Shown piece by piece: positions 116-20,339 of a stretch of 45,431 nucleotides of DNA; positions within the stretch are counted from its first letter, which is position 1; each line of letters starts with the position of its first letter. Made by a program: the position numbers and the translations under genes. The notes beneath the pieces are model-generated. The model was not told the origin of the DNA, did not search any database, and worked only from the letters and a program-made list of their open reading frames with translations. Source of the DNA: Colwellia sp. (lineage in GTDB: Bacteria > Pseudomonadota > Gammaproteobacteria > Enterobacterales > Alteromonadaceae); contig JAESPR010000008.1 in the NCBI GenBank assembly GCA_016765685.1, forward strand, positions 1 through 45,431, given 5' to 3'.

Positions 116-129
116 TGCGATTGCCCTAA
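114..129. repeat. Probable right terminal inverted repeat of the ISAs1-type element
   Basis: TGCGATTGCCCTA follows the transposase stop at once, and ISAs1-family elements commonly end in a TGCG-rich sequence finishing in CCCTG or similar. The matching left end lies outside the window, so neither the boundary nor a target duplication can be confirmed. Confidence 0.4.
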
Positions 130-373
130 TCAGGACAGCACTCCATTGAAAAACTTATCATTAGAGCAACAAATATTCCTTAATTCAGTAAGCGAATTAG
201 CATGGAAGCTTGGTTTGGATTCTCAATGGGGAATTCGGATAGCTTCTACCGTAGGGAGTTATCATACTATCTTTCAAAAAAATTTTGGTAATGAATCAAT
301 TATTCAGTTACCAAGAGGTATGAATGCTCTATGGATAAACGGCGGGCTATTATATTCACCTCCGTTCATATAA
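128..373 (+). pseudogene. C-terminal remnant of an AapJ-like general amino-acid ABC transporter substrate-binding protein
   Basis: The last 75 codons (146-373) encode LGLDSQWGIRI, VGSYHTIFQKNFG and RGMNALWINGGLLYSPPF. This matches the end of AapJ-type periplasmic amino-acid-binding proteins, which run GL..DW..., VGNYGE(I/M)(Y/F)ERN.G and RGLNALW..GG..YAPP. The reading frame stays open leftward through 128 into the insertion-sequence end and stops only at 113, as expected if the IS cut an intact gene. A TTG at 146 could initiate, but about 75 residues is far below the roughly 340 of the family. I therefore call it a broken gene, not a small protein. Its relic next to an amino-acid-processing cluster may be meaningful or chance. 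Confidence 0.65.
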
Positions 374-612: not shown

Positions 613-1515
613 ATGGAACAGGAAAGTAAAGGAAAAATTGAACTTATTATTGCTATGATTTTATCGGGCACTATCGGTGTGTTCGTGCTTGAATCAGGGC
701 AACCTAGTTATAATGCAGTGTTCTTCCGATGTTTATTTGGTGCTATTTGCCTTATCGGTTTTTGTTGGCATAAAGGATATTTAAACTTTAGCCAACTCTC
801 TAAGAAATCATTTGTATTAATACTTGTGGGTGGTGTTGCTATTGTACTTAATTGGGTTTTGCTTTTCGAGTCATATAGTCATGCTTCAATCTCTATCAGT
901 ACAGTCGCATATCATACGCAACCCATGTTTGTTGTTATTTTTGCTGCTTTTTTCTTGGGAGAAAAACTCTTAGCACATAAATTCTTTTGGATTGCATTAG
1001 CATTTTCAGGGGTTATTTTAATTGTTAATCCGACAGATTCAACTGTAAATCAAGAAGGTATGATTTATGGACTTATGTTGGCAATTTCAGCAGCAATTTT
1101 ATATGCAATTGCTACGTTAATCATAAAGCAGTTAAGTGGTATAAAGCCCCATTTTATCGCTGCATTGCAAATATCTTTAGGTGTTTTCCTTTTGTTGCCA
1201 TTTGTTGATATGTCAGCTGTACCCGCGACAGGCAGTCATTGGAATTGGTTAATAGGTCTAGGGGTAATTCATACTTGTATTATGTACATATTGTTGTACT
1301 CATCATTTCAAAAACTTCCCACTTCTTCTATTGCTGTGCTGTCTTATATCTACCCTGTTGTGGCAATTATTTTTGACTACGTGATATATGACCAGAGCCT
1401 TTCGGTCGTGCAGTTTATAGGTATCGCAATGATTATTATCGCAGGGCTAGGAAACAATATGAATATCAATGTTTTTGCACCATTTATTAGGAATAAACGA
1501 CAACCAAGTATTTAA
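613..1515 (+). CDS. EamA/DMT-family inner-membrane transporter
   Basis: This 300-residue, strongly hydrophobic protein has about ten membrane segments and the internal duplication typical of the drug/metabolite transporter superfamily (two EamA domains, about residues 10-140 and 150-285). Recognisable elements are FFRCLFGA in the first repeat, HTQPMFVVIFAAFFLGEKL at the end of the first half and LSYIYPVVAIIFDYVIYDQ in the second. Relatives such as RhtA and YdeD export amino acids or their derivatives. The gene leads a same-strand cluster of amino-acid-modifying enzymes, with only 28 nt to the next gene, so export of the cluster product (or uptake of its substrate) is the natural inference. 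Start ATG 613 has an AGAGG site. The substrate cannot be read from sequence. Confidence 0.85.
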   Translation: MEQESKGKIELIIAMILSGTIGVFVLESGQPSYNAVFFRCLFGAICLIGFCWHKGYLNFSQLSKKSFVLILVGGVAIVLNWVLLFESYSHASISISTVAYHTQPMFVVIFAAFFLGEKLLAHKFFWIALAFSGVILIVNPTDSTVNQEGMIYGLMLAISAAILYAIATLIIKQLSGIKPHFIAALQISLGVFLLLPFVDMSAVPATGSHWNWLIGLGVIHTCIMYILLYSSFQKLPTSSIAVLSYIYPVVAIIFDYVIYDQSLSVVQFIGIAMIIIAGLGNNMNINVFAPFIRNKRQPSI

Positions 1516-1543
1516 ATTTACCTATAAAGTTGAAGGAATAATT

Positions 1544-1963
1544 ATGAAACAAGTAGTTTTAGCAATGACGGAGAGTGATGCACATGTGGTCGGCAATAAA
1601 CTTCTCGAAGTGTTTTTAGATGAATCAGGATTCAGGGTCAATAATAGAGGAGCCTGTACACCACTCAGAGAAGTTTTTATAGAAGCGGCTAAAGAACCAA
1701 CGTTAGCGATTGTTTTATGCTCTCAAAACGGACATGCACGAGAAGATATTGAAGGCTTAAAAGCACTTAAAGCTGAATATAATGTCAATTGTCCCATTGT
1801 CTTAGGTGGAAACCTATCTGTTGGATCAACTAAAGTAGACAACTTACATGAACAGTTTCGATCTGCCGGCGTAGATTTAATCACCAATGAATTTACAGAA
1901 TTAAAAATTGCCTTAGAAGATATGCTGATGTTATCGACAGAGCAGGAGGTGGCTTATGCTTAA
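1544..1963 (+). CDS. glmS: Glutamate mutase (methylaspartate mutase) B12-binding S subunit homologue
   Basis: The protein has 139 residues, the usual size of GlmS/MutS (about 137). It carries the base-off cobalamin-binding signature D-x-H-x-x-G as SDAHVVGNKLL (D12, H14, G17), where the histidine coordinates cobalt. It also has the GGN-x-x-VG segment (LGGNLSVGS) that cradles the nucleotide tail. With GlmE this subunit forms adenosylcobalamin-dependent glutamate mutase, which interconverts L-glutamate and (2S,3S)-3-methylaspartate. An upstream in-frame start at 1469 exists, but ATG 1544 has a good GAAGGA site and gives family length. The last 8 nt overlap the dehydrogenase gene, implying translational coupling. 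Unlike glutamate-fermentation loci, neither methylaspartate ammonia-lyase nor the reactivase GlmL/MutL is adjacent. The symbol follows mutase usage and is not glucosamine synthase. Confidence 0.9.
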   Translation: MKQVVLAMTESDAHVVGNKLLEVFLDESGFRVNNRGACTPLREVFIEAAKEPTLAIVLCSQNGHAREDIEGLKALKAEYNVNCPIVLGGNLSVGSTKVDNLHEQFRSAGVDLITNEFTELKIALEDMLMLSTEQEVAYA

Positions 1964-2969
1964 GCGTATAGCAATTATAGGCGCTTCAGGCGTTGTCGGA
2001 GAGAGAATGTTTCAGTTGTTGAAAGAGCGAAACTTTCAACATGATAGTCTTGAATTATTCGCTTCTGAAAAAGAAGGGCGGTTCTTAGAATATGAGGGCG
2101 AAAAGTTTCCGATACGACCTGTTAGTACCGCAGATTTTTCTAATATTGATGTGGCGTTATTTACGGCTGGAACTGAACCAAGCGTGCAATATTCACAGGT
2201 AGCTGCTGATGCAGGTTGTTTGGTTATCGACAATACCAATGTATTTAGGATGCGAGATGATGTGCCGCTGATCGTGCCACGAGTAAACCTTAATAGTTTA
2301 ACAGGTATACCAAAGAGTAATATTATCGCTAATCCAAATTGCTCGACGATACCTTTTGCAAGAGCAATTCAACAATTAGATCAGCAGTTTAATCTGAAAG
2401 AGGCAGTGGTTAGTACTTACCAGGCTGTTTCTGGCGCAGGCAAGGCTGGAATTGTTGAATTGGAAAATGAAGCCAAAGCAAAGTTAGATGATGTCGATTA
2501 TATTCCTGAAGTTTTTGAGGAGAAAATAGCTTTTAATTTAATTCCTAGAATAGATGAAGATCTGGCTTCTGGCGCTACGATGGAAGAGCAAAAAATGCGT
2601 CAAGAAACAAGAAAAATACTTGATCGCCCAAGCCTTCCCGTTTTTACAACTTGTGTCAGAGTTCCCGTAGCAAACTGTCATTCAGAAGCAATATGTTTAA
2701 CTTTTGAGAATGAGATATCTTTAACTAAGGTAATAGAGGTGTTAGAAACTGTTCCTGAGTTAACGTTGCATTTAGGTAAAGGACGTGAAAGTTACCCTAC
2801 GCCATTAGAAGTTTCGGGCAGTCACAACATGCATATTGGCAGAGTAAGGGTGGATAAAGAATACCCAAATAAACTACAGTTTTGGTTGGTAGCGGATAAT
2901 TTACTCATTGGTGCAGCATTAAATGCCGTACAAATCGCCGAAGGCATGAGATCAGAAGGTTGGATATAA
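1956..2969 (+). CDS. Aspartate-semialdehyde dehydrogenase homologue, probably acting on a methylaspartyl phosphate
   Basis: The 337-residue protein is full length for ASADH. It has the N-terminal NADP-binding GASGVVG (9-15), the catalytic cysteine in NPNCST (C129), Gln156 in YQAVSG, and the EExKM...ET.KI helix. It ends with the R-x-x-x-x-x-x-H pair, R235 and catalytic H242 in CVRVPVANCHSEA. All residues needed for NADP-dependent reduction of a beta-aspartyl phosphate to the semialdehyde are therefore visible. It overlaps the mutase S gene by 8 nt (AGGAGG upstream of ATG 1956) and the kinase gene by 1 nt. Lying between glutamate mutase subunits, it is more likely a pathway-specialised paralogue reducing 3-methylaspartyl-4-phosphate than the housekeeping enzyme. 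That substrate assignment is inference. One visible difference from common ASADHs is VPRVN where VPEVN is usual. Confidence 0.88.
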   Translation: MLKRIAIIGASGVVGERMFQLLKERNFQHDSLELFASEKEGRFLEYEGEKFPIRPVSTADFSNIDVALFTAGTEPSVQYSQVAADAGCLVIDNTNVFRMRDDVPLIVPRVNLNSLTGIPKSNIIANPNCSTIPFARAIQQLDQQFNLKEAVVSTYQAVSGAGKAGIVELENEAKAKLDDVDYIPEVFEEKIAFNLIPRIDEDLASGATMEEQKMRQETRKILDRPSLPVFTTCVRVPVANCHSEAICLTFENEISLTKVIEVLETVPELTLHLGKGRESYPTPLEVSGSHNMHIGRVRVDKEYPNKLQFWLVADNLLIGAALNAVQIAEGMRSEGWI

Positions 2970-4129
2970 TGGGCTCTTATTCTAACATCTTCGATTTTGA
3001 TAAACCGACTTCATTAGTTGAGTTTCGTAAGTATGGAGGATCGTCGTTTTCGCCTCTAGAAAATACTAAACAAATAGCAATAGATATAAGCACAGCGGTA
3101 AAAAATGGGGTTAAGCAAGTCATTTATTGTAGCGCTCCTAGCAATTTGTCAGAATCACTAAAATCCATGGCTTATGAAATAAACCCGCAGTTAAGAAATT
3201 CAGCGGTTGATAGCTTAGTCACTGGTTCAGATGCGGTAGGGAGCTTTTTATTACAACATTCATTACAAAGTCATAACCTTAAAGTAAAAGTGCTCAATGG
3301 TATGAATAATGGAATATTCACCGATAATGTTGTAGGCGGTGCTAATGTTCTTCAAGTTAAAGCAAATGAAATAACCTCGAATTTAGAACATGTTGATGTG
3401 TTAATTATACCGGGTGGTCAAGGCTCAGATCATAAATCAATAACTTGGTTAGGAAAAAACAGTTCAGATCTTTCATGTATATTACAAACGATTGCTACAC
3501 AGCAAGATCATTGTTCAATATATTCTGATGTTGATAGTGTATTTAACGTTGATCCTAATGTTTATAAAGATGCGACTCCTTATCGTGAATTGGACTATGA
3601 CACTGTAATAACAGCCGCCAAACTTGGTGCAAAGGTACTACATTTTAATGCCGTAGCACTAGCCAAAAATAACGGTGTTGAAATTGTATGTAAGCTTAAT
3701 AAAGCCCCTTTTAATGAAGGTACACGCATTGGAAATTATCGTTCTGGCACTATTATTGTTACCGATAAAAAAGCACAACTGATTGTCGTGAACCATAAAA
3801 ATGTAGTGAAAAATGAAAGCATGGCGAAAAATAAAAGTGTCATTCTTGAATTTTTAGCGAGCAACAATATTTTTGCTGTTAGTGATCAAGCAATAGGTAT
3901 ATTAAAAGATAACCAAATCCTTATTCCTATGGCTTATGTTGATTATATTAGTGAACTCAAAGAGAAGTTTCATGATGAAATTCGTTCAGGGCAGTCAATT
4001 ACCGCACTACATGTAGTTTCAGGTGAAAAAGTGATTAACAGCACTTTTATTGAAGAGCATGAAATGGAAGAGCGTGTAGCTGAGCTTTATCAAGAGCACA
4101 TAAAAAAGGAAGTGAGCGAGTATGTTTAA
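2969..4129 (+). CDS. Divergent aspartokinase homologue, candidate methylaspartate kinase
   Basis: This 386-residue protein has the amino-acid kinase fold of aspartokinase followed by a C-terminal ACT-like region (about 270-385). Aligned by eye, KFGGTS is KYGGSS (21-26), the Y-[TS]-DVDGV...DPR nucleotide segment is YSDVDSVFNVDPN, and the ELDYDTVITAAKLGAKVLH helix is clear. The substrate-recognition motifs differ. GERLS, whose Glu contacts the aspartate amino group in E. coli LysC, reads GSDAV. GRGGSD, whose Arg binds the substrate carboxylate, reads GKNSSD. The likely role is ATP-dependent phosphorylation of the beta-carboxylate of an aspartate analogue. ATG 2969 overlaps the preceding stop (TAATG) and has AGAAGG upstream. 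An upstream TTG at 2960 is less likely. The 3' end overlaps glmE by 8 nt. Confidence 0.75.
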   Translation: MGSYSNIFDFDKPTSLVEFRKYGGSSFSPLENTKQIAIDISTAVKNGVKQVIYCSAPSNLSESLKSMAYEINPQLRNSAVDSLVTGSDAVGSFLLQHSLQSHNLKVKVLNGMNNGIFTDNVVGGANVLQVKANEITSNLEHVDVLIIPGGQGSDHKSITWLGKNSSDLSCILQTIATQQDHCSIYSDVDSVFNVDPNVYKDATPYRELDYDTVITAAKLGAKVLHFNAVALAKNNGVEIVCKLNKAPFNEGTRIGNYRSGTIIVTDKKAQLIVVNHKNVVKNESMAKNKSVILEFLASNNIFAVSDQAIGILKDNQILIPMAYVDYISELKEKFHDEIRSGQSITALHVVSGEKVINSTFIEEHEMEERVAELYQEHIKKEVSEYV

Positions 4130-5471
4130 TCATCTAACTTCCTACTGTTTAGAAAATGCAATGGAACCGCCAGAAGCAGGTGAAGTTGTTGATTTTTTAA
4201 GAAGTGCCCCGAACGTTTACGAAAAATTATCTGAAGCTAAAAGTAGCAACAATATGATGCTACAGCCTCGTTGTGGCGTAGGTCGTCATGAAGAAATGCT
4301 TGATATTCATCGTATAATATATAGTCGAAGCAAACCTGATTTATTGTCTTTAACAATTGATGCACATACACGTCTTTTAAGATTTGACAAAGTTGCTAAA
4401 GTTCTAGAGGGTAATCCTGAAAACATCAATGGTTACCCTTTAATTAACCATGGCTGGAAAAAAGCGCGTGAACTGGTTAAAGCATCTAAAGTCCCTATTG
4501 AAGTAAGGCATGGCTCTCCAGATGGTCGTTTATTATTTGAAACATCTATTGCTGCAGGCTTTACCTCATATGAAGGAGGAGGGATCGGTTATAACTTACC
4601 TTATTGTAGAGATGTTAAACTAGAAGATTCAATTCGATATTGGCAGGAAACAGATGCATTGTGTGGAGATCTTGCTAAGCAAGGCATCATCATAGATCGT
4701 GAGTTTTTTGGAACTATGTCTGGTGTGCTAATGCCCCCTTCTATAAGTATTGTCTGTTCATTGTTAGAGGCTTTACTTGCTGCAGAACAAGGAGTGAAAA
4801 GTTTATCACTGGCAATTTGCCAGAGTGGTAATCCTATTCAAGATATCGCAGCACTCAAAGCATTGACCTATTTAGCAGATAAATATTTACCTGAAAACAC
4901 TTCTCATTTTTCAGTCTTTCATGAATTTATGGGCGTTTTTCCGCAAGAAAGACATAATGCTGATGCATTAATAATGCTTGGAAGTTTTGTTGCAAGGCAT
5001 GGCGGAGCCACTAAAATGATCAGTAAAACCCATCAAGAAGCTCTAGGAATTCCAACAGCATATGCTAATGCGGAAGGGATTCTATCCGCTTCTGCAGCTA
5101 GAAGCCCTATTCTTGATTGCTTGTTACCTGATGCTTCAAAGGAAGAAGAGGAACAGGATTTGATCATTAGAGAAGTTGAAAGCCTATTGGAAGCAGCTCT
5201 AGACTCAAATTCAATTATGCAGGGTGTTGTAAATGCTTTTCATAAGGGATTACTAGATATTCCGTTTAGTGCCTCTAGAAGTGCAAAGTCAGGGGTAATT
5301 CCAATGCGGGATGCTAATGGATTCATACGAATTATGGATTTTGGAAATCTAGCTATGTCAAGCCAGATTAGAGCAATACACAAGAATAAATTAGCGAGCA
5401 CAAAGTTATTGAACGGAAGTAAACACGAAACTATTAAGAAAGATATTTTTTATTTTAGTAGCGGCAATTAA
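4122..5471 (+). CDS. glmE: Glutamate mutase (methylaspartate mutase) catalytic E subunit homologue
   Basis: At 449 residues it is slightly shorter than clostridial GlmE (about 480). It keeps the TIM-barrel active site: R50 in LQPRCG, R84 in DAHTRL, R129 in VRHGSPDGR, E151, Y157 and Y161 in EGGGIGYNLPY. R50-R84 (34 apart), R129-E151 (22 apart) and the Tyr spacing match the arginine claw (Arg66, Arg100, Arg149), Glu171, Tyr177 and Tyr181 of Clostridium cochlearium GlmE. GLLxPPSI- and ALLAAEQGVK-type segments also match. With the S subunit it should catalyse B12-dependent carbon-skeleton rearrangement of glutamate to 3-methylaspartate. ATG 4122 overlaps the kinase gene by 8 nt and has an AGGAAG site. 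The stop is 12 nt before the oxygenase gene. Confidence 0.92.
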   Translation: MFNHLTSYCLENAMEPPEAGEVVDFLRSAPNVYEKLSEAKSSNNMMLQPRCGVGRHEEMLDIHRIIYSRSKPDLLSLTIDAHTRLLRFDKVAKVLEGNPENINGYPLINHGWKKARELVKASKVPIEVRHGSPDGRLLFETSIAAGFTSYEGGGIGYNLPYCRDVKLEDSIRYWQETDALCGDLAKQGIIIDREFFGTMSGVLMPPSISIVCSLLEALLAAEQGVKSLSLAICQSGNPIQDIAALKALTYLADKYLPENTSHFSVFHEFMGVFPQERHNADALIMLGSFVARHGGATKMISKTHQEALGIPTAYANAEGILSASAARSPILDCLLPDASKEEEEQDLIIREVESLLEAALDSNSIMQGVVNAFHKGLLDIPFSASRSAKSGVIPMRDANGFIRIMDFGNLAMSSQIRAIHKNKLASTKLLNGSKHETIKKDIFYFSSGN

Positions 5472-5483
5472 GGAGAATAGATT

Positions 5484-6503
5484 ATGAATTTGCATACCAT
5501 TAAAGAAGAGCTTAGTAATGATATTGTTACGTTAACAGATATTACGAAAAGAAAATTAGAAGGTGAATTAAAAAGTGCCGTGTCACCATATAAAGACGCG
5601 GAAATGAATATGTTACAAGGAACAAAGGCACTCTATAATTGTTTGCCACTAGACATTATAAGTTCGATAAAAAGATTTTCCAATGATCCATCAGCACCGG
5701 GATACTTGGTACTTGATAACTTACCTATTGGCGCTGCTCCTGCTACCCCTATTAATGGTAGTGCAGAGAAAAATAGGCAGGATCATGTTTTAGAATCCAT
5801 TGTTTTAGGTTTAGGCTCAATGCTCGGTCAGCCAATAGGTTATAAATGGGAGAAAGATAACCAACTTGTACATCATGTAGTGCCTCAACCTGGAGGCGAG
5901 TACACTCAATCAAATCAGGGAAGTAAAGTTTTTCTTAATTTTCATAATGATATGGTTTACGCTGATGAATTAGTTTATAACCAATTCAACCCTGACTTTT
6001 TGGTTTTATTTTGCATTCGACCAGATGCTCGCCATCAAGCAGAAACTCGTTATGCTAATGCAAAAGAAATCCTAAAACACCTATCTGAAGAAGAAGTTAA
6101 GAGGCTATATGAGCCAAAATTTAGAATGGCATCACCTTCTAATTACTCTCGTTTCCTTTCCGAAAAAGGCATCAAATGGTCAATCTCACAATCAATTTTA
6201 TCTGGTGATATGAAGTTTCCTGAAATAGCTTTAGGCGCGAATGGGGTAAAAGCAGAAAGAGAAGAAGATCAGGCCTTAATTAATAAGTTATACAGTATTT
6301 GTAATCAACCGAGTGTCTATCGGGGAGTCAAGCTAAAATCTGGACAAGCATTATTGGTCAATAACCGAAAAGGGGTGCACGCGAGAACGCAATTTGAACC
6401 ATCTTGTGATGAAAATGATCGCTGGCTCCTTCGAGCTAATATCAGGCAAAATCTTTGGTCTATTAGACACAAAATGGAAGATAGCTTTAGACGTTATTGT
6501 TAA
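5484..6503 (+). CDS. Fe(II)/2-oxoglutarate-dependent amino-acid oxygenase, VioC/AsnO/clavaminate-synthase-like
   Basis: The 339-residue protein matches the TauD/TfdA-related family that hydroxylates free amino acids (VioC arginine, AsnO asparagine, KDO lysine hydroxylases). Visible are the iron triad H154-N-D156 in NFHNDMVYAD and H299 in NNRKGVHAR, plus the 2-oxoglutarate-binding R313 in DRWLLR. R313 lies exactly 14 residues after H299, as in VioC (H316/R330). The first motif is HxD instead of the HxE of VioC. The family usually hydroxylates C3 or C4 of an amino acid, so the substrate here could be 3-methylaspartate, a derived semialdehyde product, or glutamate before rearrangement. I cannot choose between them. 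AAGGAG precedes ATG 5484, and the gene is tightly linked to glmE. Confidence 0.85.
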   Translation: MNLHTIKEELSNDIVTLTDITKRKLEGELKSAVSPYKDAEMNMLQGTKALYNCLPLDIISSIKRFSNDPSAPGYLVLDNLPIGAAPATPINGSAEKNRQDHVLESIVLGLGSMLGQPIGYKWEKDNQLVHHVVPQPGGEYTQSNQGSKVFLNFHNDMVYADELVYNQFNPDFLVLFCIRPDARHQAETRYANAKEILKHLSEEEVKRLYEPKFRMASPSNYSRFLSEKGIKWSISQSILSGDMKFPEIALGANGVKAEREEDQALINKLYSICNQPSVYRGVKLKSGQALLVNNRKGVHARTQFEPSCDENDRWLLRANIRQNLWSIRHKMEDSFRRYC

Positions 6504-6518
6504 ATCACCACCCTGTTG

Positions 6519-6543
6519 GTTGGTTGAGAAAGCCTCAGCCAAC
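6519..6543 (+). other. Intercistronic hairpin between oxygenase and porin genes
   Basis: GTTGGTTGAG (6519-6528) and CTCAGCCAAC (6534-6543) form a complete 10-bp stem, including one G-U pair, around the 5-base loop AAAGC. No T-tract follows, so it is not a normal terminator. It starts 15 nt after the oxygenase stop and ends 13 nt before the porin start. It may set mRNA stability or the enzyme-to-porin expression ratio. Confidence 0.55.
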
Positions 6544-6556
6544 AACATATGAGAAA

Positions 6557-7474
6557 ATGCTAATGTTAAAATTATATAAATATATTTTTAGTCTGTTTTT
6601 ACTTTTGATACCGCTAGGAACAGCAATAGCAGATGCAAGCTTCTACGGTATATTCGATATTTCGTCACAACAATTTATTAACAGTGAGACCAATAACGAG
6701 TTACACACTAAAAGTAATGGTTCACGTGCTGGTGTAAAAGCCAAGTTTGAAGTCAATGACGATTTATCTTGGTTAATTCAAGTTGAATCAGCTGTTGATT
6801 ACAACTCAGCTTTAGATACACAAACGTATTTTAGTGCGAGAAATACTTTTATTGGACTACAAGGAAGCTGGGGAAGATTAATCATGGGTAAAAATGATTC
6901 CCCATTAAAATTATCGCAAGGAAACATCGATTTATTTACTGATACTGACGTACAGATTTACGCATTACATGAGGGAGATAATAGAATAACGGATACGATT
7001 ATATTTAATTCCAATACTTATAATGGTTTCTCGTTGAATTACGGACTCGTAAAAAATGGGTCTAAAGATCTTACCAGTGTAGGTCATTCAATATCACTTC
7101 AATATCGGTTAGAGCATGCTTACGTTGCTGTTGCTTATGACAATAATGTCCTGAATCAAAATATAGTTCGGTTGGTTAGTGAAGTTGCGTATCAAAAAAT
7201 TAACTTTGGCTTACTTTTACAAAAAGCAAACATTATTAATAAAATAACCTCTTATGGCTTCATGCTTAGTATGCAATATTCGTTGCCTCAATATTTATTG
7301 AAATTTCAATATTCAAATTCCGATGATAAAGTTGAGGGTGGACGAATTTTAACCGCTGGTATAGAGTGGCTTGCCACAGATAACTTAGCAGTATATACCC
7401 TAATGTCAGATAGCTTGGGTGATGAAATAGCATCCGAAAAATTAATTAGTTTAGGTGTAAAGTATCGATTTTAG
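6557..7474 (+). CDS. Outer-membrane general porin
   Basis: A cleavable signal peptide (KLYKYIFSLFLLLIPLGTAIADA, with the likely cut near AIADA) is followed by about 280 residues of alternating beta-strand sequence. It ends in the C-terminal aromatic signature VKYRF, as in trimeric Gram-negative porins of the Porin_4 type. SFYGIFDIS at the mature N-terminus, SRAGVKAKFEVNDDLSWLIQVES and the FIGLQGSWGRLIMGK segment leading to loop 3 are typical. ATG 6557 and ATG 6563 are both possible, and the upstream start at 6497 would add an unlikely prefix that overlaps the oxygenase stop. It lies downstream of the enzyme genes on the same strand and may pass their substrate or product across the outer membrane. 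Convergent with the LysR gene, 19 nt away. Confidence 0.85.
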   Translation: MLMLKLYKYIFSLFLLLIPLGTAIADASFYGIFDISSQQFINSETNNELHTKSNGSRAGVKAKFEVNDDLSWLIQVESAVDYNSALDTQTYFSARNTFIGLQGSWGRLIMGKNDSPLKLSQGNIDLFTDTDVQIYALHEGDNRITDTIIFNSNTYNGFSLNYGLVKNGSKDLTSVGHSISLQYRLEHAYVAVAYDNNVLNQNIVRLVSEVAYQKINFGLLLQKANIINKITSYGFMLSMQYSLPQYLLKFQYSNSDDKVEGGRILTAGIEWLATDNLAVYTLMSDSLGDEIASEKLISLGVKYRF

Positions 7475-7493
7475 TTAACGACAATTATAATTT

Positions 7494-8411
7494 TCAGTTA
7501 GAAAATTGGTTAAGAATCCAATTTTTAAAAGTCCTTGTATGAGGTTTCAAAGGTATATGAGACGAATAGACTATATAGAATGATGCGCCTGATTTTAAAT
7601 AATTATCAGCGAGAGGGACTAAGGTATCATCTAACTTTGGATCGATCATTAACCCTGTTCTGGCAATAAATGCGCCAATATCTTTCTTACCAGCGTTAAT
7701 AACATGATTATAGTCTGTAAAACCAAGAACCTTGTTTTTATTAAACCAGCTTTCTGGATACCAGCTACTCCAATTGGGTTTTACATTCCATAAGGGAGTT
7801 GAAATATCCTCTAATAAGTAGCTATTCTGAATGATACGTTCGATATTTTCGCCTCCAATGTCTTGCACCAGACTTTTGGTTGCACAAGGGAGCAAGTAGT
7901 CGTCTCTGATTTTTTCAAAAACGAGTGAAGTGTCCGTAGTGGTAGCGGTATAACGAATGGATACATCTATATTATTTGTACCAAAATCGACCATATTTAA
8001 TGAGCTGATTATATTGAGTCTGATTGTTGGGTATTTCTTCAAAAAATCGGGAAGAGAATTGATTAAACACAAGGACGCAAAAGAAGGAACGATAGATACG
8101 GTTAATGTAGAAAATTTATCAGATAACCGCAGACCTTCACCTGCAGATTTTATGGTATCTAGAGAGCGGCTGATTTCTTTAAAGTAGTTGATGTACTCAG
8201 GTTTTACAGAAACTTTTCCTTTGACTCGACTAAACAAGGGGATTTTCATCGCCCCTTCTAAAACACGCAATTGCTGACTAATAGCGGAGGGGGTGATATT
8301 CAATTCTTCCGCTGCTTTTGCAACACTTTTATTTCTCACCACTGCTTCTGCTGAGATTAGTGATTTCATTGGAGGGAGGTTACTTAATTTAGCCATTTGA
8401 TTGTTTTTCAT
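7494..8411 (-). CDS. LysR-type transcriptional regulator, GcvA-like
   Basis: This 305-residue protein has an N-terminal winged helix-turn-helix (about 12-70) with the LTTR core SVAKAAEELNITPSAISQQLRVLE. An effector-binding domain (about 95-300) follows. The LPPMKSLISAEAVVRN opening resembles the GcvA subgroup, which often governs amino-acid metabolism genes. It faces the porin tail to tail, so it is at the opposite end of the cluster from the putative promoter before 613. It is the only regulator in the accessory segment and therefore the best candidate to control it, by inference only. ATG 8411 has a weak ribosome site. ATG 8396 is an alternative. Confidence 0.88.
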   Translation of the reverse strand: MKNNQMAKLSNLPPMKSLISAEAVVRNKSVAKAAEELNITPSAISQQLRVLEGAMKIPLFSRVKGKVSVKPEYINYFKEISRSLDTIKSAGEGLRLSDKFSTLTVSIVPSFASLCLINSLPDFLKKYPTIRLNIISSLNMVDFGTNNIDVSIRYTATTTDTSLVFEKIRDDYLLPCATKSLVQDIGGENIERIIQNSYLLEDISTPLWNVKPNWSSWYPESWFNKNKVLGFTDYNHVINAGKKDIGAFIARTGLMIDPKLDDTLVPLADNYLKSGASFYIVYSSHIPLKPHTRTFKNWILNQFSN

Positions 8412-9028: not shown

Positions 9029-11482
9029 CTACAAACCATGGCTAAATAGTACTTCATGAGTGATATCAATATATTGAATAGTGGCAACCACACTCCAAAT
9101 CTCTTGTTCTATTTGTTTGCTACGATGAATGGCATATGAACTGATATAACTTAGCTCTGCATTTAAGTGCTCGATATTGGGCTCACTGGTGCGTGAAATT
9201 TTTAACTGAAAACAGAAAAACAGACCCTTTTCTAAAGCGTGTTTTATAAAAGACTCTCTTGTTTCAATGGTCTCAAGTTCAGCCGCAAACTTTACCTTAA
9301 CCGATTGTTCAATTTGCTCAACTTTATTAAATAGTGCAATGTACAAAACTTCAGTAATTGACTCTTCATTGACGATTAACTTTTTCAAACATGATTCAAG
9401 AAAATTATCTTTATAGAGTTTTGTCATGATCGGGTAAAAATTATAATAGTTTTTCCGGTCACTCAAGTTTTTCAGTTGTTGTAAAAATTCATGTCCATTA
9501 TCATTACTCACTAACGCTTCTATTTTATAACGACTACCGCTAGTTTGAACAATGAGTGCTGGCACTTGCATTTGTTGAGCATAATGCGTTCGTAATGCTT
9601 CTTCTAAACCGGGCACTAACAAAGTATATTCGTCTGTTATTAGTTTGTCTTTATTCTTATTAATTAATAATTTAAAAAACGACCGCCCCACATGTTGATG
9701 CTCTTTAATAATAACTCGTAAATTAAGCACCGTTTTTTTCTTATTAATTTTCACAACTTCATAAGGCAGTTTTTTCAAGTCGTAAGCTGAAGTGATTTTT
9801 TGTAAGCTTGGAAAAGAAACTTCAATGATCTCACCGACCGCAAGCATAGCATGTTTACCTAACTCAACTTTCAATCCCGAAATAGAAAAATCAACTACAG
9901 TACCTTGCCATTGAACTTTTTTACATTCCAATACAGTTGGCGTGCTATAAATATACCTTGATTCTTGTCGCTGATTTTTATAGGTTACTCCTAATTCCTC
10001 TACGTTTAATTTTTCTTTTAAACGCTTATGACCAAACTTTCTAAGCTTGTTAACATCTATTTCATCATTGGAAAATTTTTGATATTGCTCAATAGCAGTT
10101 TGATGGGTTATGTCACTGGCAACAACCGAAAAAGATAATGAATCAACACTGGCAAGCACTTCTGCTGACGGTGGTAAATTTATATATTGCTTTTTTACAT
10201 CTTGGGTATTTGACAGGGTAAAAGGTGAGTAGGTATTAAGTTTATCTACGTCAAAGTAAGTTAACATCGTAATGGCGAAGGAACTTTTTTTAGCCGCAAA
10301 CGTTAAGAAGCTCTGGAAAAAACTATCATCTTGAGGTAATTGCGCTTCATCTATGGTGTAGAAAAAATCTTTGCCTTGGTTTTGATGAATAAAACTATAA
10401 ACCAATAAAGACTTGCCTTGTTTATATTTTTTCAATAGTCGAACTAACCGCTCTTCATTAAGTAAAAATTGTAAATTAGAGTGGTTTTCTTCGTCTTGCC
10501 AATACTGAAAAACAGGCTGATTATTATTGGTTGTTAAGGCATAACGCGGGAAAACCCCATTTTCAGAATGTTCAAAAAAAATTGGCAGCTCATTTAGTCT
10601 AGGTAACACGTACTGCTCAAAAGTTCTAGCTTGCAACGCTGAAATGGTGTTTTCTAAGTTAACTTTGTATCGACGCTTATTACCTTGAATGTAACCTAAC
10701 AAAAACTTTGCAAAGGCATCATCATCACTAACATCTACTCGTTGACAGCCAATAAGTTGAGTATTAGCATCACTTTGAATATTTTTAACTTGATAGACCA
10801 ATGCATCATCTTTACCAAACTGAAAGTCTTCTTCTATACCTTTAAAGATAATCGTTAGTTGCTGATCTATATATAAAGGTTCTTTATTATTTAACCTAAA
10901 TTTTACCCCTGAAACACTTACATCGATACTGCTAACTGATTTTTTCTGTTTGTTTTCCAAAATAATCACTAATGAAGTAACGAAATTCATTCGCTCTTCT
11001 ACTCTATTTTGGTATTGATTGAGCGGAAAAAGAGTCACCGGATATTGAGTTTTATCCTGTGTTTTTTTAGGGGATTCTGTTATGTCCTGCTCATTTTTAG
11101 ATTTTAACTGGCTAATTTTTTGTTCTTTTTGATAAATTACCCGAAAGTTATTTTCGGTATTTTTTACCGATTCATAAACACCAAAGGTATAGCCCTTGTA
11201 TGCATCAACATTTTGTTCGAACACATCAAGCGCAACCTCATCTAAAAAGTGGCTTTGGCCGCCATATTCAAATAATTTACAGTCGCCATCAACTAAACCT
11301 CGCAAATCAATAGAGCGAGTACAGGCACTAGCTAAACGTTTCAATTCCATTTTTAATAAAAATTTTTCTGTTTTAGCGATCTGTTTAGTGCTTTGAGTAA
11401 ATTTAATATCAAAAGTCGGTTTACTAACCTCACCGCGGAAGTTAGCAATTATTTTTTGATATTTAGAAAAGTCTGTAGTCAT
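9029..11482 (-). CDS. Large cytoplasmic protein with two PilZ (c-di-GMP-binding) domains
   Basis: The 817-residue protein has no signal peptide or membrane segment. A first PilZ signature is R160-VEE-R164 with DVSVSG at 187-192. A second, in the central third (about 480-600), has QRQESR followed by DFSISGLKVE. RxxxR and (D/N)xSxxG together form the cyclic-di-GMP-binding site of PilZ proteins. The rest, including the N-terminal 150 residues and the middle segment, has no motif I recognise. Similar long PilZ proteins are commonly found near radA in Alteromonadales. A role in c-di-GMP-dependent surface behaviour is plausible but unproven. It is divergent from radA with 235 bases between them. 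Confidence 0.8.
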   Translation of the reverse strand: MTTDFSKYQKIIANFRGEVSKPTFDIKFTQSTKQIAKTEKFLLKMELKRLASACTRSIDLRGLVDGDCKLFEYGGQSHFLDEVALDVFEQNVDAYKGYTFGVYESVKNTENNFRVIYQKEQKISQLKSKNEQDITESPKKTQDKTQYPVTLFPLNQYQNRVEERMNFVTSLVIILENKQKKSVSSIDVSVSGVKFRLNNKEPLYIDQQLTIIFKGIEEDFQFGKDDALVYQVKNIQSDANTQLIGCQRVDVSDDDAFAKFLLGYIQGNKRRYKVNLENTISALQARTFEQYVLPRLNELPIFFEHSENGVFPRYALTTNNNQPVFQYWQDEENHSNLQFLLNEERLVRLLKKYKQGKSLLVYSFIHQNQGKDFFYTIDEAQLPQDDSFFQSFLTFAAKKSSFAITMLTYFDVDKLNTYSPFTLSNTQDVKKQYINLPPSAEVLASVDSLSFSVVASDITHQTAIEQYQKFSNDEIDVNKLRKFGHKRLKEKLNVEELGVTYKNQRQESRYIYSTPTVLECKKVQWQGTVVDFSISGLKVELGKHAMLAVGEIIEVSFPSLQKITSAYDLKKLPYEVVKINKKKTVLNLRVIIKEHQHVGRSFFKLLINKNKDKLITDEYTLLVPGLEEALRTHYAQQMQVPALIVQTSGSRYKIEALVSNDNGHEFLQQLKNLSDRKNYYNFYPIMTKLYKDNFLESCLKKLIVNEESITEVLYIALFNKVEQIEQSVKVKFAAELETIETRESFIKHALEKGLFFCFQLKISRTSEPNIEHLNAELSYISSYAIHRSKQIEQEIWSVVATIQYIDITHEVLFSHGL

Positions 11483-13130: not shown

Positions 13131-15392
13131 ATGAAAATTTTTTTTACCATCACACTTTTAGTATTGAGTTGTTCTTTATCTTTACTAAGCAATGCTCACA
13201 CAGAGCAATTATCTATTGAACGCATTTATAGTTCGCCATCACTTAATGGTCAAACACCTCAGTCGTTAAAATTTTCTCCTGATGGCTCGCGAGTCACTTA
13301 TTTACAAGGGAAAAGTGACAACCTCAATCGCTACGATTTATGGGAATACAACCTAGCAAGTAAAGAGAACAAGCTATTAGTTGACTCTCAAGTATTGTTT
13401 AGCGGCATAGAAGTACTTTCTAATGAAGAAAAAGCCCGTCGAGAGCGACAACGCGCTTATGGCTTTGGCATCATGGAATATCAATTTTCTAATGACGGCA
13501 GCGCTTTGTTGTTTCCACTTAACGGCGATATTTATTATTACCATTTAGCCAGTAAAACCGCCAAACGTTTAACACAAACCGACGCCTTTGAAACCGATGC
13601 AAAATTTTCTCCCAAAGGTCACTATATTTCTTTTATTCGTGGCCAAAACATCTTTGTCCTAAATATTGAAAGCGGTAAAGAAAAACAATTAACAAAAGAT
13701 GGCGGCAGCAATAATATCAAAAACGGTATGAGCGAATTTGTTGCCCAAGAAGAAATGAACCGAATGACAGGTTACTGGTGGTCACCTAATGAAAAGCACA
13801 TCGCTTTTTTGCGCGTTGACGAAACCCCCGTACAAGTTGTTATTCGTAATGAAATATATGCTGAGAAAATTGAATTAATAGAGCAGCGTTACCCCGCGAC
13901 TGGTACCAACAATGTACATATACAGTTAGCGGTAACCGATATAAAAGGCAAGAAAATTCGTTTTATAGAGCTTGATGAAGCGCAAGGTGACAATAAGAAA
14001 GACTTTTATTTGCCACGGGTACAATGGCTACCTGACAGTAAAAACTTATCTTACCAATGGCAAAGTCGCGATCAAAAAATATTAAAACTAAAAACCTATA
14101 ACTTAAAAAAACGTAAACAAAAAACCTTATTAACAGAGCGATCTAAACATTGGCTAAACTTGCACCACGATTTACATTTTTTAAGTGATAACAAATCTTT
14201 TATTTGGGCTTCAGAGCGTGATGGTTTTAAACATTTATACCACTTTACTAATAAAGGGAAATTGATAAACCAATTGACCAAAGGCAACTGGGTGGTTAAC
14301 TCGATTAAACATATTGATGAAGAAAATGAACTGATATATTTTACTGGCCGCGCTGACACGCCACTTGAGCGTCATTTATATCGCGTACCGCTGAATGGCA
14401 AATCACCTGAGCATGTTGCTCGCTTAAGTAAACGCAACGGTTTTCATGATATTAACTTTAGCCGAGACAGCAATAGTTACATTGATAGTTTTTCTAATAT
14501 CACTACACCAAAACAAGTGAGCTTGCACCAAGCCAATGGCGAACACATTACGTGGTTGGCGCAAAACAAAGTTAACGATACTCACCCTATTAGCCCTTAT
14601 TATGATGATTTAATTCAGCCTAAATTTGGCACCATAACGGCAAATGATGATAAGACCCCTCTTTATTACAAACTATACCAACCTAAAAATATGGCTCCGG
14701 GTAAAAAGTATCCGGTTATTGTTAACGTGTACGGCGGCCCTATCGCTCAGCGAGTGAGAAACATCTGGCAAGGTGCCAACATGACTCAATATATGTTGCA
14801 GCAGGGTTATATTGTTTTTGAATTAGATAACCGTGGCTCAAACTATCGTGGTACCGATTTTGAGTTTCCACTTTATGAAAAGCTAGGCCAAGTAGAAGTT
14901 GACGATCAAATAATGGGCGTTAAATACCTGCACTCACTGCCTTTTGTTGATAAAGAACGCATTGGTATTTTTGGTCATTCATATGGCGGTTATATGGCAC
15001 TGATGGCAATGTTTAAAGCAGGTGATTATTTTAAAGCTGGCGTCAGTGGTGCACCGGTAACCGACTGGTTATTATACGATACTCATTACACTGAACGTTA
15101 TTTAAACCATCCAGAAGTTAATGCAGACGGCTATGAACAATCAAGCGTATTTCCTTACGTGAGTGGTTTAAGTGGCCCCTTGATGGTTTATCATGGCATG
15201 GCCGATGACAACGTATTGTTTACTAATACCACTAAATTAATCAAAACCTTGCAAGATGAAAACAAGCAATTTGAATTAATGACTTACCCAGGCAGCAAAC
15301 ACAGCATGCGCGGTAAAAAAGTTAAAGTGCATTTGAATAATACTATTATGAGTTTCTTTGATAGACACTTTAAGAAAAATTTACCGATGTAG
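13131..15392 (+). CDS. Dipeptidyl-peptidase IV-like S9 serine peptidase, exported
   Basis: A signal peptide (MKIFFTITLLVLSCSLSLLSNAHT) is followed by a beta-propeller (about 40-500) and a C-terminal alpha/beta-hydrolase domain (about 520-750). The catalytic triad is S617 in GHSYGGY, D692 in HGMADDN and H724 in GSKHSM. The 32-residue D-to-H spacing equals that of human DPP4. EFVAQEEMNR carries the double-Glu motif that holds the substrate amino terminus in DPP4, supporting dipeptidyl-peptidase activity on X-Pro or X-Ala peptides. It probably works in the periplasm in peptide scavenging. 753 residues is the normal length for bacterial DPP4. Convergent with metH. Confidence 0.93.
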   Translation: MKIFFTITLLVLSCSLSLLSNAHTEQLSIERIYSSPSLNGQTPQSLKFSPDGSRVTYLQGKSDNLNRYDLWEYNLASKENKLLVDSQVLFSGIEVLSNEEKARRERQRAYGFGIMEYQFSNDGSALLFPLNGDIYYYHLASKTAKRLTQTDAFETDAKFSPKGHYISFIRGQNIFVLNIESGKEKQLTKDGGSNNIKNGMSEFVAQEEMNRMTGYWWSPNEKHIAFLRVDETPVQVVIRNEIYAEKIELIEQRYPATGTNNVHIQLAVTDIKGKKIRFIELDEAQGDNKKDFYLPRVQWLPDSKNLSYQWQSRDQKILKLKTYNLKKRKQKTLLTERSKHWLNLHHDLHFLSDNKSFIWASERDGFKHLYHFTNKGKLINQLTKGNWVVNSIKHIDEENELIYFTGRADTPLERHLYRVPLNGKSPEHVARLSKRNGFHDINFSRDSNSYIDSFSNITTPKQVSLHQANGEHITWLAQNKVNDTHPISPYYDDLIQPKFGTITANDDKTPLYYKLYQPKNMAPGKKYPVIVNVYGGPIAQRVRNIWQGANMTQYMLQQGYIVFELDNRGSNYRGTDFEFPLYEKLGQVEVDDQIMGVKYLHSLPFVDKERIGIFGHSYGGYMALMAMFKAGDYFKAGVSGAPVTDWLLYDTHYTERYLNHPEVNADGYEQSSVFPYVSGLSGPLMVYHGMADDNVLFTNTTKLIKTLQDENKQFELMTYPGSKHSMRGKKVKVHLNNTIMSFFDRHFKKNLPM

Positions 15393-15523: not shown

Positions 15524-18500
15524 TTATTCTGGCTCATAATCTAAATTCGCCGATAACCACCGCTCGGCTTGCTCGATAGTGAAACCTTTGCGGGCAGCAT
15601 AATCAAGCACTTGGTCTTTAGCCAGTTTCGCCACGGCAAAGTATTTAGACTCCGGGTGAGCAAAGTACCAACCGCTAACCGCAGCACCCGGCCACATGGC
15701 ATAACTAGACGTCAACTCCATATTAATGTTTTCTTCAACATTAAGTAACTGCCACAACAAGCCCTTTTCGGTGTGTTCAGGGCACGCCGGATAACCAGGG
15801 GCTGGGCGTATGCCTTGATAATTTTCACGAATTAAATCATCGTTACCTAAGTTTTCATCCGCTGCGTAACCCCAATATTCTTTACGTACTTTCTCATGCA
15901 AGTATTCGGCGCTTGCTTCTGCTAACCGGTCGGCAACAGCTTTTAATAATATCGAGTTATAAGCATCGTGATCGCCGTCATACACTTTCACTAATTCGTC
16001 AACACCAAAGCCTGCTGAAACGGCAAAGGCACCAACATAATCATCAATACCTGAGGTTTTATCGGCGACATAATCAGATAAACAGCGGTTGAACTGACCT
16101 GCTGGTTTTTTACTTTGCTGGCGTAGTTGCTGTAACTTCATTAGTGTTTCGTTGCGTGTTTCATCACGATAAAGTATTAAGTCATCTACATCTCGGTGCG
16201 CAGGGAACAAGCCAAAAACTGCTTTAGCGGTAATTTTTTTATTATTGATAACATCGTCAAGCATGGCATTGGCATCATTAAATAAATTGGTCGCTTCTGT
16301 ACCAATAACGTCATGTTTCAAAATCAGTGGATATTTACCTGAGAGTTGCCACGTCATAAAAAATGGCGTCCAGTCGATGTATTTTCGCACTTTATTCAGA
16401 TCTAATTCATCAAGTACTGTAACGCCGAGTTTGTTCGGTTTTTTCGGCGTGTAGCCGTCAAAACTTATCGGGGTAGCATTGGCGCGAGCATTTTCAAGGC
16501 TTATCAAACTTGAACGAGGGCCTTTTTTATAATGACGAACACGCACCCGTTCATATTCTTCTTTAGTGGCACTAAAAAATTTAGCTTTGTGTTCGTATGA
16601 TAATAAATTACTAACCACAGAGACTGCGCGCGAAGCATTAGACACATAAACCACTGGATGATCATATTGTGGTTCTATTTTTACTGCCGTATGGGCTTTC
16701 GAGGTAGTAGCTCCCCCAATAAGCAAGGGTAGCTCAAAACCTTGTCGTTTCATTTCTTTAGCAACATGCACCATTTCATCAAGTGATGGGGTAATTAACC
16801 CTGACAAACCAATAATATCGACTTTTTTCTCTTTGGCCACCCGCAAAATGTCTTCACAAGAAACCATCACGCCAAGGTCAATTATTTCATAGTTATTACA
16901 TTGTAATACCACGCCAACAATGTTCTTGCCGATATCGTGCACATCGCCTTTAACCGTTGCCAGTAATATCTTGCCGTTAGAGCTAGCTTCTAATTTCCCC
17001 TCTTCAATATAGGGATTTAAGTATGCTACGGCTTGTTTCATTACCCGCGCTGATTTAACCACTTGTGGTAAGAACATTTCACCAGCACCAAACAAGTCAC
17101 CTACCGTATTCATGCCAGCCATTAATGGCCCTTCAATAACATCAAGGGGCTTGGTCGCCACAAGGCGTGCTTCTTCGGTATCTTCAACAATAAACTCGTT
17201 GATGCCTTTAACCAATGAATATGACAAACGCTCATTTATCGGTAGTTCGCGCCAACTCAAATCTACTTTTGATGCTTGACCACCCGCTTGACCATGATAT
17301 TGTGTAGCAATATCAAGTAAGCGCTCGGTCGCGCCGTCATCGCTGTTTTGAATAACATCTTCAACCGCACTTTTTAATTTTTCAGGAATGTCAGAATAAA
17401 TAGCCAATTGCCCTGCGTTCACTATGCCCATGTCCATACCATTTTTTATCGCGTGATATAAAAAGACCGCATGAATGGCTTCACGCACGGGGTTATTGCC
17501 CCGAAACGAAAAAGATACGTTGGAAACACCACCAGAGATCATCGCATAAGGCAGGTTTTCTTTAATGTCAGCAACCGCTTCAATAAAATCAACCGCGTAG
17601 TTATTATGCTCTTCAATGCCGGTAGCAACAGCGAAAATGTTAGGGTCAAAAATAATATCTTCGGGTGGAAAGCCTATTTCATCAACCAATATATGATAAG
17701 CCCGATGACATATTTCAACTTTGCGTTTACGTGTATCGGCTTGTCCTTGCTCATCAAATGCCATCACTATCATAGCCGCGCCATAACGGCGTACTAATTC
17801 GGCTTGTTGACGAAAGTTATCTTCACCCTCTTTTAGGCTAATGGAGTTAACAATGCCTTTGCCTTGAATGCATTTTAAACCCGCTTCAATAATATCCCAT
17901 TTAGACGAGTCGATCATAATGGGCACTTTAGCAATATCTGGCTCGCCGGCAATTAAGTTTAAAAAACGCACCATCGCCTCTTTTGACTCCAACATGCCTT
18001 CATCCATGTTGATATCGATAATTTGCGCACCATTTTCAACTTGCTGTAAGGCAACAGCAATCGCTTGATCGTAATTGTCTTCTTTGATCAAGCGCTTGAA
18101 CATGGCTGAACCCGTAACGTTGGTACGCTCACCAACATTTAAGAACAAAGTATCTTCTTGAATAGTTAACGCTTCAAGCCCAGATAAACGACAAGCGATT
18201 TTACGCGCTTCAACTTTGCGTGGTTTTATTCCTTGTTTATGAAGGCTAGCCACTGTATCAGCCATGCCTTTAATATGTTCAGGCGTAGTACCACAACAAC
18301 CACCAATAATGTTTAAAAAGCCTGAACTAGCCCACTCTTGCACGTGGGTATTCATGTCTTCAACAGTGAAATCATATTCACCAAAAGCGTTAGGTAAACC
18401 CGCATTGGGGTGAGCAGAAACCGCAACGTCGCTAATACGGCTTAATTCTTCAACATATTGACGTAGTTCAACTGGGCCTAACGCGCAGTTTAATCCAAAA

Positions 18501-19231
18501 GAAATAGGTTTCGCATGACGTAATGAATTGTAAAATGCCTCGGTGGTTTGCCCAGACAAAGTACGACCTGAAGCATCGGTAATGGTGCCTGAAATCATCA
18601 CCGGTAGGCGAATTTGTAATTGCTCGAATACAGTTTCTACCGCAAAAATAGCCGCTTTAGCATTTAGCGTATCAAAAATTGTTTCGATTAAAATAATGTC
18701 ACTGCCACCTTCAATTAACGCGGTGGTTGACTCAATATAGGCTTCTTTTAATTCATCAAAACTAACATTTCGAAAAGCAGGATCATTCACATCTGGCGAT
18801 ATAGAGCAAGTGCGGTTAGTTGGCCCTAACACTCCGGCAACAAAGCGCGGTTTATGAGGTGTTTTTTTATTGTATTCATCCGCAGCAGCACGAGCAATTT
18901 GCGCAGCCACTAAATTGATTTCCGCGCTATATGCTGCCATGTCGTAATCCGACATAGCGATAGTAGTGGCATTGAAGGTATTCGTTTCTAAAATATCCGC
19001 GCCCGCTTCAAGGTATTCTAAATGAATAGTTTTAATCACCTCAGGTTGGGTGAGCACTAATAAATCATTATTGCCTTTTACATCACTATGCCAGTCAGCA
19101 AAACGATCACCTCGATAGTCTTGTTCTTCAAACTTATACGCTTGAATCATGGTGCCCATAGCACCATCTAAGATTAAAATTCTTTTTGCTAGTTGCTGCT
19201 CAAGTAAGGTAAATGATGACGATTTTTTCAT
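15524..19231 (-). CDS. metH: Cobalamin-dependent methionine synthase
   Basis: This is a 1235-residue four-module MetH, close to the E. coli length of 1227. The homocysteine module carries the zinc cysteines, including the adjacent pair C312-C313 in GGCCGTT. A pterin/methyltetrahydrofolate module (about 350-640) with [10 protein letters not shown] follows. The B12 module has DVHDIGKNI with the cobalt ligand H765, and the C-terminal AdoMet reactivation domain has [15 protein letters not shown]. It transfers the methyl group from methyltetrahydrofolate through methylcobalamin to homocysteine. It lies 87 bases after metA on the same strand, so the two may share the methionine-responsive promoter. 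It is a second B12-dependent enzyme in the window besides glutamate mutase. Confidence 0.98.
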
Positions 19232-19290
19232 AATGATTTCCGATTTTCTAAAGAGTAAACGTGTAAATCAAGAAGCTGAGATAGCCAAAC

Positions 19291-19328
19291 TTAAATGACC
19301 GATCTTAAATGACCTAGCTTAAATAACA
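19291..19328. repeat. Three tandem 14-bp units covering the metA stop codon
   Basis: TTAAATGACC begins at 19291 and 19305, and TTAAATAAC begins at 19319, an exact 14-base period. The third unit contains the metA stop (19319-19321). It looks like a slippage-made duplication at the 3' end of the gene. Confidence 0.7.
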
Positions 19329-20266: not shown

Positions 20267-20339
20267 AACACACCTATCACGAATAAAAGTATATAAAAAT
20301 AGTGTCAAAAACAAGAATTATCATATTACTTGGATTGCT

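Follow-up and report, generated by a model that had tools for sequence, protein, structure and literature searches.

A plus-strand run of six genes (positions 613-6503) in a 45,431-nucleotide stretch of a Colwellia sp. genome (contig JAESPR010000008.1 of assembly GCA_016765685.1; the whole stretch is hereafter the window) encodes an EamA exporter followed by the two glutamate mutase subunits GlmS and GlmE, an aspartate-semialdehyde dehydrogenase (ASADH) homologue, an aspartokinase-like kinase and an AsnO-like Fe(II)/2-oxoglutarate oxygenase. Comparative evidence supports the view that the five enzyme genes form a real, recurrent module, and we propose, with chances that we put at about even, that the operon serves to produce and export a small non-standard amino acid by a route leading from the mutase through the oxygenase and the kinase to ASADH. 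We infer the substrates, hydroxylation position, step order, product and role as follows: 1) GlmS and GlmE, with adenosylcobalamin, would convert L-glutamate to (2S,3S)-3-methylaspartate. 2) The oxygenase would then hydroxylate free 3-methylaspartate, most likely at C3, to give 3-hydroxy-3-methylaspartate. 3) The kinase would phosphorylate the side-chain carboxylate of this hydroxylated acid, forming an acyl phosphate. 4) The ASADH homologue would reduce the acyl phosphate to a hydroxylated 3-methylaspartate semialdehyde. 5) EamA would export this semialdehyde or a simple derivative, or else a compound built further from it, the likely role of which would be that of a competitive antimetabolite of the aspartate, homoserine or branched-chain families.

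The genes are packed tightly on the plus strand. EamA (613..1515; PF00892, 1.3e-36), which is 49% identical to the EamA protein of the Streptomyces cattleya cluster and scores closest to general amino-acid/carboxylate exporters, every one below its cut-off, is separated by 28 bases from GlmS (1544..1963); from there onward the genes overlap or nearly abut, with the ASADH gene (1956..2969) starting within GlmS, the kinase gene (2969..4129; ATG at 2969, frame open from TTG 2960) starting on the last base of ASADH, GlmE (4122..5471) starting within the kinase gene, and the oxygenase gene (5484..6503) following after a gap of 12 bases. An earlier reading of this DNA from its letters alone (the sequence-only reading) had named the five enzyme genes, and open reading frames and Pfam matches confirm all of them in place and strand. 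That reading had also set beforehand, as a test, the co-occurrence of the five genes elsewhere. A profile of six oxygenases searched against genome contigs yielded 52 loci. Among 98 plasmid records matching the oxygenase, six of the seven best were chosen as further loci, the remaining one being a duplicate. All five genes are present in 34 of these 58 loci (30 of 52 from the scan and four of six from plasmids); the others have the oxygenase alone (15), GlmS, GlmE and the oxygenase (4), ASADH, the kinase and the oxygenase (3), GlmS and the oxygenase (1) or the kinase and the oxygenase (1), these absences being soft since the flanks span 10-14 kb and some contigs end early. All but one of the 34 full sets are actinobacterial, mostly from Streptomyces; all 33 of these also have a LysR gene and a gene for a protein resembling solute-binding proteins (SBP-like), and 25 have EamA. 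The remaining full set, on a contig from a Rubrivivax metagenome-assembled genome (MAG; locus L028), has the order SBP-like protein, GlmS, ASADH, kinase, GlmE, oxygenase, dipeptide-ligase-like ATP-grasp and MFS exporter, its core order being that of the window.

As the first scan was seeded with the oxygenase, it was repeated with the kinase of Streptomyces sp. NBC_01003 as seed against 295 genomes of the genus (E <= 1e-60, with flanks of about 9 kb as far as contig ends permit). Matches occur in 17 genomes, including the centre genome of the sample (G1029), chosen for having the set. Fourteen of the 17 loci carry the full set, ten of them being the same DNA as loci of the earlier scan and four new; one is of an ASADH-kinase-oxygenase-EctB type, and two are without the oxygenase, one having a truncated kinase beside EamA and LysR and the other a kinase with a broken motif. 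Clustering of flanking open reading frames into families proved too noisy and was left unused. We rejected chance adjacency of the five genes on the strength of this recurrence in both scans.

The individual proteins retain features expected of active enzymes, as the sequence-only reading had claimed for the mutase, ASADH and the oxygenase. 1) GlmE (PF06368, 3.2e-123) aligns with all nine residues that we take to form the substrate site of the Clostridium enzyme (R66, R100, R149, E171, Y177, Y181, K322, K326 and E330); in 39 cluster rows eight of these are invariant, with position 322 occupied by K in three rows and by R in the other 36. 2) GlmS (PF02310 B12-binding, 2.2e-8; methylaspartate mutase S, 8.5e-25, below cut-off) contains SDAHVVG, fitting the DxHxxG motif of the cobalamin subunit. 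The source genome further encodes a CobA/BtuR adenosyltransferase, which makes a supply of adenosylcobalamin plausible. 3) The ASADH homologue (Pfam Semialdhyde_dh and Semialdhyde_dhC; PRK14874, 378.5 bits against a cut-off of 223) keeps the catalytic Cys, Gln, Arg, His, Glu and Lys, the Cys being present in 40 of 41 aligned rows with one gap. 4) The kinase, with a GKNSSD motif, is an aspartokinase homologue (PF00696 AA_kinase, 2.7e-25), as had been claimed, but differs in its substrate site, as described below; no ACT domain was found at E <= 0.001 in it or in the L024 and L027 kinases, in a scan that had no canonical aspartokinase as positive control. 5) The AsnO/clavaminate-synthase-like oxygenase (TauD, 2.6e-14) has the Fe ligands H154 and D156 of an HxD motif and the distal H299, and its Arg313 and Arg317, invariant in the alignment, are candidates for binding 2-oxoglutarate. 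The operon copies are additional ones, since elsewhere the source genome has another ASADH (39% identity) as well as three further aspartokinase-like proteins.

Enzymes that may act on the product are found beside some relatives of the set. On a plasmid of Mesorhizobium sp. AR07 (L007:1158-10353), GlmS and GlmE occur together with the kinase, ASADH, an ATP-grasp and an EctB-type transaminase, with no oxygenase match in the 19 kb examined, and the predicted product of this set is 2,4-diamino-3-methylbutanoate. The corresponding acid, 2,4-diamino-3-methylbutanoic acid, occurs in Lotus nodules, and our search found no paper on it. Nor did it find one on a rhizobial diaminomethylbutanoate or rhizolotine route, PMC3538637 and PMC7825764 not bearing on it in the portions available. 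Plasmids of R. sullae (L085) and R. etli (L086) have a related kinase, annotated as uridylate or aspartate/glutamate/uridylate kinase, near ectB, with ASADH also in the former and nifH about 3 kb away in the latter. In a Nonomuraea locus (L048:1800-12248), GlmS, GlmE and the oxygenase are accompanied by an ATP-grasp, EctB and an AurF-like N-oxygenase; by eye, a second ATP-grasp, a P450 and an adenylation-domain protein are present too, and we read the whole as a larger cluster built around that amino acid. The sequence-only reading saw no last step encoded here, and the likely transaminase or peptide ligase of some relatives indeed has no counterpart among the operon genes. The unit might make a building block that enzymes encoded elsewhere in the genome either ligate into a dipeptide or convert by transamination to a diamino acid, as the dipeptide-ligase-like ATP-grasp and MFS exporter adjoining the Rubrivivax set and the EctB transaminase and ATP-grasps of AR07 and Nonomuraea would suggest. 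Against this, 29 of the 33 actinobacterial full sets have no match to the ATP-grasp queries used, nor to the ATP-grasp-like protein of L022, 32 of 33 have none to the EctB queries used, and no transaminase found in the Colwellia genome (estimated to be 77% complete) exceeds 34% identity to the AR07 enzyme; we regard such a fate as unlikely, though not far-fetched.

The oxygenase probably acts before the kinase, on 3-methylaspartate, because it accompanies GlmS and GlmE where no dedicated kinase is found and because every kinase scored beside it has an altered substrate site. Regarding the first point, four of the 58 loci have the mutase and the oxygenase with no match to the kinase or ASADH; in two of them (L043, L048) these genes lie side by side or almost so, and the sole kinase match in these genomes, that of L043 being a MAG, is a GRGGSD-type aspartokinase of 32-34% identity. 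Regarding the second, the residues Glu74 and Arg151 (Corynebacterium glutamicum aspartokinase numbering), which we take to line the substrate site, are replaced in the window kinase by Asp and Lys. All 38 scored kinases that accompany the oxygenase have the same Asp74/Lys151 pair (fragment L050 gave no data at these positions), three of them coming from clusters without the mutase, and so do 16 of the 17 kinase-seeded loci, L141 having Asp and Pro; Glu74/Arg151 is found in seven of seven other kinases, namely those of AR07 and two rhizobia, the three housekeeping-type copies of the Colwellia genome and the C. glutamicum stretch. We read this as a refitting of the kinase for a hydroxylated acid. 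The sequence-only reading had placed the kinase and reductase directly after the mutase, with one of the amino acids hydroxylated; its frame, in which mutase, kinase and reductase lead to a methylated semialdehyde and one hydroxylation occurs, is strong and in line with the comparative evidence, its order is revised here, and overall it is partly supported. Under the original order 3-methylaspartate would be phosphorylated and reduced first, and the oxygenase would hydroxylate the semialdehyde or a later amino acid; the fact that the oxygenase gene closes the five-gene order, in the window as in each of the 34 full sets, would suit this, as would the AR07 plasmid, which has mutase, kinase and ASADH with no oxygenase match, but the loci lacking a kinase match and the altered substrate site of the kinases that accompany the oxygenase both speak against it and render it improbable.

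The substrate of the oxygenase can be narrowed by comparison with AsnO, the asparagine 3-hydroxylase of Streptomyces coelicolor, whose structure (2og5) is its best solved relative by sequence. The sequence-only reading had called the enzyme VioC/AsnO-like; the AsnO likeness stands, and we rejected a VioC-like arginine hydroxylase, as the VioC NCBIfam score is 72.4 against a cut-off of 418.6. The scores for clavaminate synthase (130.4 vs 450) and GntD (118.2 vs 345) are likewise below cut-off. Asp241 of AsnO sets its substrate, the D241N variant acting on aspartate according to the part of the source available (PMC9968057). The equivalent position, mapped via a 24-residue offset between the 2og5 chain and AsnO numbering that derives from what we take to be Fe ligand H155, is Gly in the window and G, A or S in 62 of 64 oxygenase rows (no data in the other two), always followed by Ala-Asn-Gly. 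The window enzyme is therefore no asparagine hydroxylase of the AsnO type, and aspartate or 3-methylaspartate would fit as its substrate. In three of the 58 loci (L024, L026 and L060) the kinase, ASADH and oxygenase occur without the mutase, together with two ATP-grasps and a cupin, and in L024 and L026 also EctB; the trio is therefore not tied to the methyl group, and these loci probably represent an aspartate-based sister pathway. L026 has a second oxygenase copy that has lost the first Fe-ligand His. The AsnO product is a 3-hydroxylated free amino acid in the text available. VioC also hydroxylates a free amino acid at C3. Both activities, like the clusters without the mutase, where no methyl group is expected, argue against the oxygenase acting on the new methyl group to give, as a hydroxymethyl or methylene compound, 3-hydroxymethyl- or 3-methylene-aspartate semialdehyde. 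That outcome, which we judge doubtful, would be favored by the tertiary nature of C3 in 3-methylaspartate and by the small residue in place of D241, which implies a different pocket. We also considered an alahopcin-like hydroxymethyl product; this dipeptide antibiotic contains such a hydroxymethyl unit, and the literature passages available describe it only as a cyclic hydroxamic acid.

Phylogenetic trees place the window proteins with a handful of relatives. The window GlmE groups with those of Rubrivivax, a Sulfitobacter MAG and Mesorhizobium AR07 (100/100), apart from the remaining GlmE proteins of its family, though long branches meet at this point and the details are unsure; the window oxygenase likewise groups with those of Rubrivivax and Sulfitobacter (100/99, long branches). 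GlmE matches occur in 12 of 295 genomes of the window's family, where apart from its own none exceeds 39% identity, and in six of 369 genomes of the class, the others being 27-37% identical; oxygenase matches occur in nine of 398 genomes of the phylum, the others at 23-32%. These matches being so few and distant, the operon is rare and was probably acquired. It is very improbable that an aspartate-semialdehyde operon merely adjoins a glutamate mutase of unrelated, catabolic function: glutamate fermentation is the best-known setting of glutamate mutase and other GlmE are present in the same family, but the operon genes overlap, include none for a methylaspartate ammonia-lyase, recur as a set in both scans and in two phyla, and encode a GlmE of a separate group.

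Several observations weigh against the proposed route from mutase through oxygenase and kinase to ASADH. 1) GlmE and GlmS are below their NCBIfam equivalog cut-offs (TIGR01503, 374.6 vs 390.1; TIGR01501, 74.6 vs 135.8) and the kinase is far below its own (best score 161.4 vs 376), so that all three are divergent. 2) In two of the four loci without a kinase match (L047, L066) the mutase and oxygenase genes are 6-8 kb apart. 3) The 38 kinases with Asp74/Lys151 form one clade (97/92), and the change is therefore a single evolutionary event; further, the truncated kinase of L140 has the same pair with no oxygenase near by. 4) The trio without the mutase indicates that these later enzymes can also act on a different substrate, which is probably aspartate. 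5) To our knowledge, a tertiary C3-H is an unusual target for this oxygenase family. 6) The SBP-like gene, present in all 34 other full sets, is reduced in the window to a remnant, and the pathway here may have lost a step or a sensor, unless a protein encoded on another contig of the genome (C57) replaces it.

This remnant (116..373, plus strand), absent from the gene list of the sequence-only reading, comprises the C-terminal 85 codons of an SBP_bac_3 (AapJ/BztA-like) protein and matches the Rubrivivax protein in tblastn with 44% identity over 64 amino acids (E=4e-14 in 700 bases, 1e-9 genome-wide); an in-frame stop and the left contig end cut off the rest of the gene. The C57 protein is the only other match of the Rubrivivax protein in the genome, at 31% identity and with a better score than the remnant. 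By eye, a signal peptide is not evident in most SBP-like relatives, and no ABC transporter permease or ATPase lies beside the gene in the annotated sets L022, L023 and L027; the protein may therefore be an enzyme or a sensor. Its best solved relative by sequence is the periplasmic amino-acid-binding protein 4z9n (2.3e-85), with ancestral dehydratases second (1.2e-19), and a cyclohexadienyl-dehydratase-like enzyme was also considered. Downstream of the oxygenase gene lie a gene for an outer-membrane porin (6557..7474, plus strand, frame open from TTG 6497; PF13609, 2.3e-18), with a signal-peptide-like start at 6557 by eye, and a convergent gene for a LysR regulator (7494..8411, minus strand; PF00126, PF03466; best NCBIfam match GcvA, below cut-off). 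A scan for promoters and terminators was uninformative (36 promoter-like sites vs 32.8 expected; three terminator-like vs 4.8 expected). Elsewhere in the window, positions 9029-11482 encode a protein of 817 residues in which two PilZ domains are matched, its gene being divergent from one that by eye is RadA-like, and positions 15524-20314 hold a gene that by eye resembles B12-dependent methionine synthase and adjoins one for homoserine O-succinyltransferase, near the B12-dependent operon.

In five Streptomyces loci (L027, at 13171-15193, L064, L072, L125 and L127) genes for LeuC/LeuD, the isopropylmalate isomerase, lie near the set, the LeuC of L027 scoring above its cut-off. This could be a self-resistance copy or chance; if the product were an antimetabolite, it would suit a spare resistant copy of a leucine-pathway target. 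On a more speculative note, which we hold to be possible but rather unlikely, 3-hydroxy-3-methylaspartate 4-semialdehyde or an immediate derivative may constitute a widespread undescribed class of amino-acid antimetabolites, made by a five-enzyme module of Streptomyces and rare proteobacteria and sometimes ligated into dipeptides. If the proposed route holds, it would add a new route out of glutamate into the chemistry of branched aspartate-family compounds, in which a B12 radical mutase is coupled both to an oxygenase of free amino acids and to a carboxylate activation and reduction pair taken from lysine/threonine biosynthesis. Since many Streptomyces have the set, which also lies on the S. 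cattleya megaplasmid, the product can be sought in culturable strains, and the kinase residue change offers a direct handle on the step order.

The sequence-only reading knew of no described system with this set, and our full-text literature search, with most subscription journals outside its reach, found none either, which is weak evidence of novelty. Among known systems, the methylaspartate pathway of glutamate fermentation shares GlmS and GlmE with the window; it was rejected as an explanation on account of the different GlmE clade and the lack of a methylaspartate ammonia-lyase among the operon genes, to which that search was confined (compare Gemmobacter L020). The ectoine-type route of aspartokinase, ASADH and EctB likewise leads through a kinase and a reductase to a semialdehyde; it was rejected for the window, where no EctB is found among the operon genes (EctA and EctC were looked for only there) and the mutase and oxygenase are added. 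In macrolactam biosynthesis, a GlmES-type mutase also makes 3-methylaspartate for secondary metabolism, VinH/VinI for vicenistatin and SceL/SceM for sceliphrolactam supplying the (2S,3S) form (PMC11284099, PMC5785472); there, unlike in our proposal, 3-methylaspartate is attached to a carrier protein and undergoes decarboxylation, and the text available from these papers mentions no kinase, ASADH or oxygenase. The AR07 set is similar in coupling a mutase of the same GlmE clade to a dedicated kinase and ASADH, and differs in its Glu/Arg kinase, its EctB transaminase and the absence of an oxygenase match in the 19 kb examined. Finally, the window oxygenase shares with AsnO the Fe/2-oxoglutarate core, and departs from it in having G, A or S in place of D241, followed by Ala-Asn-Gly, and HxD in place of HxE.

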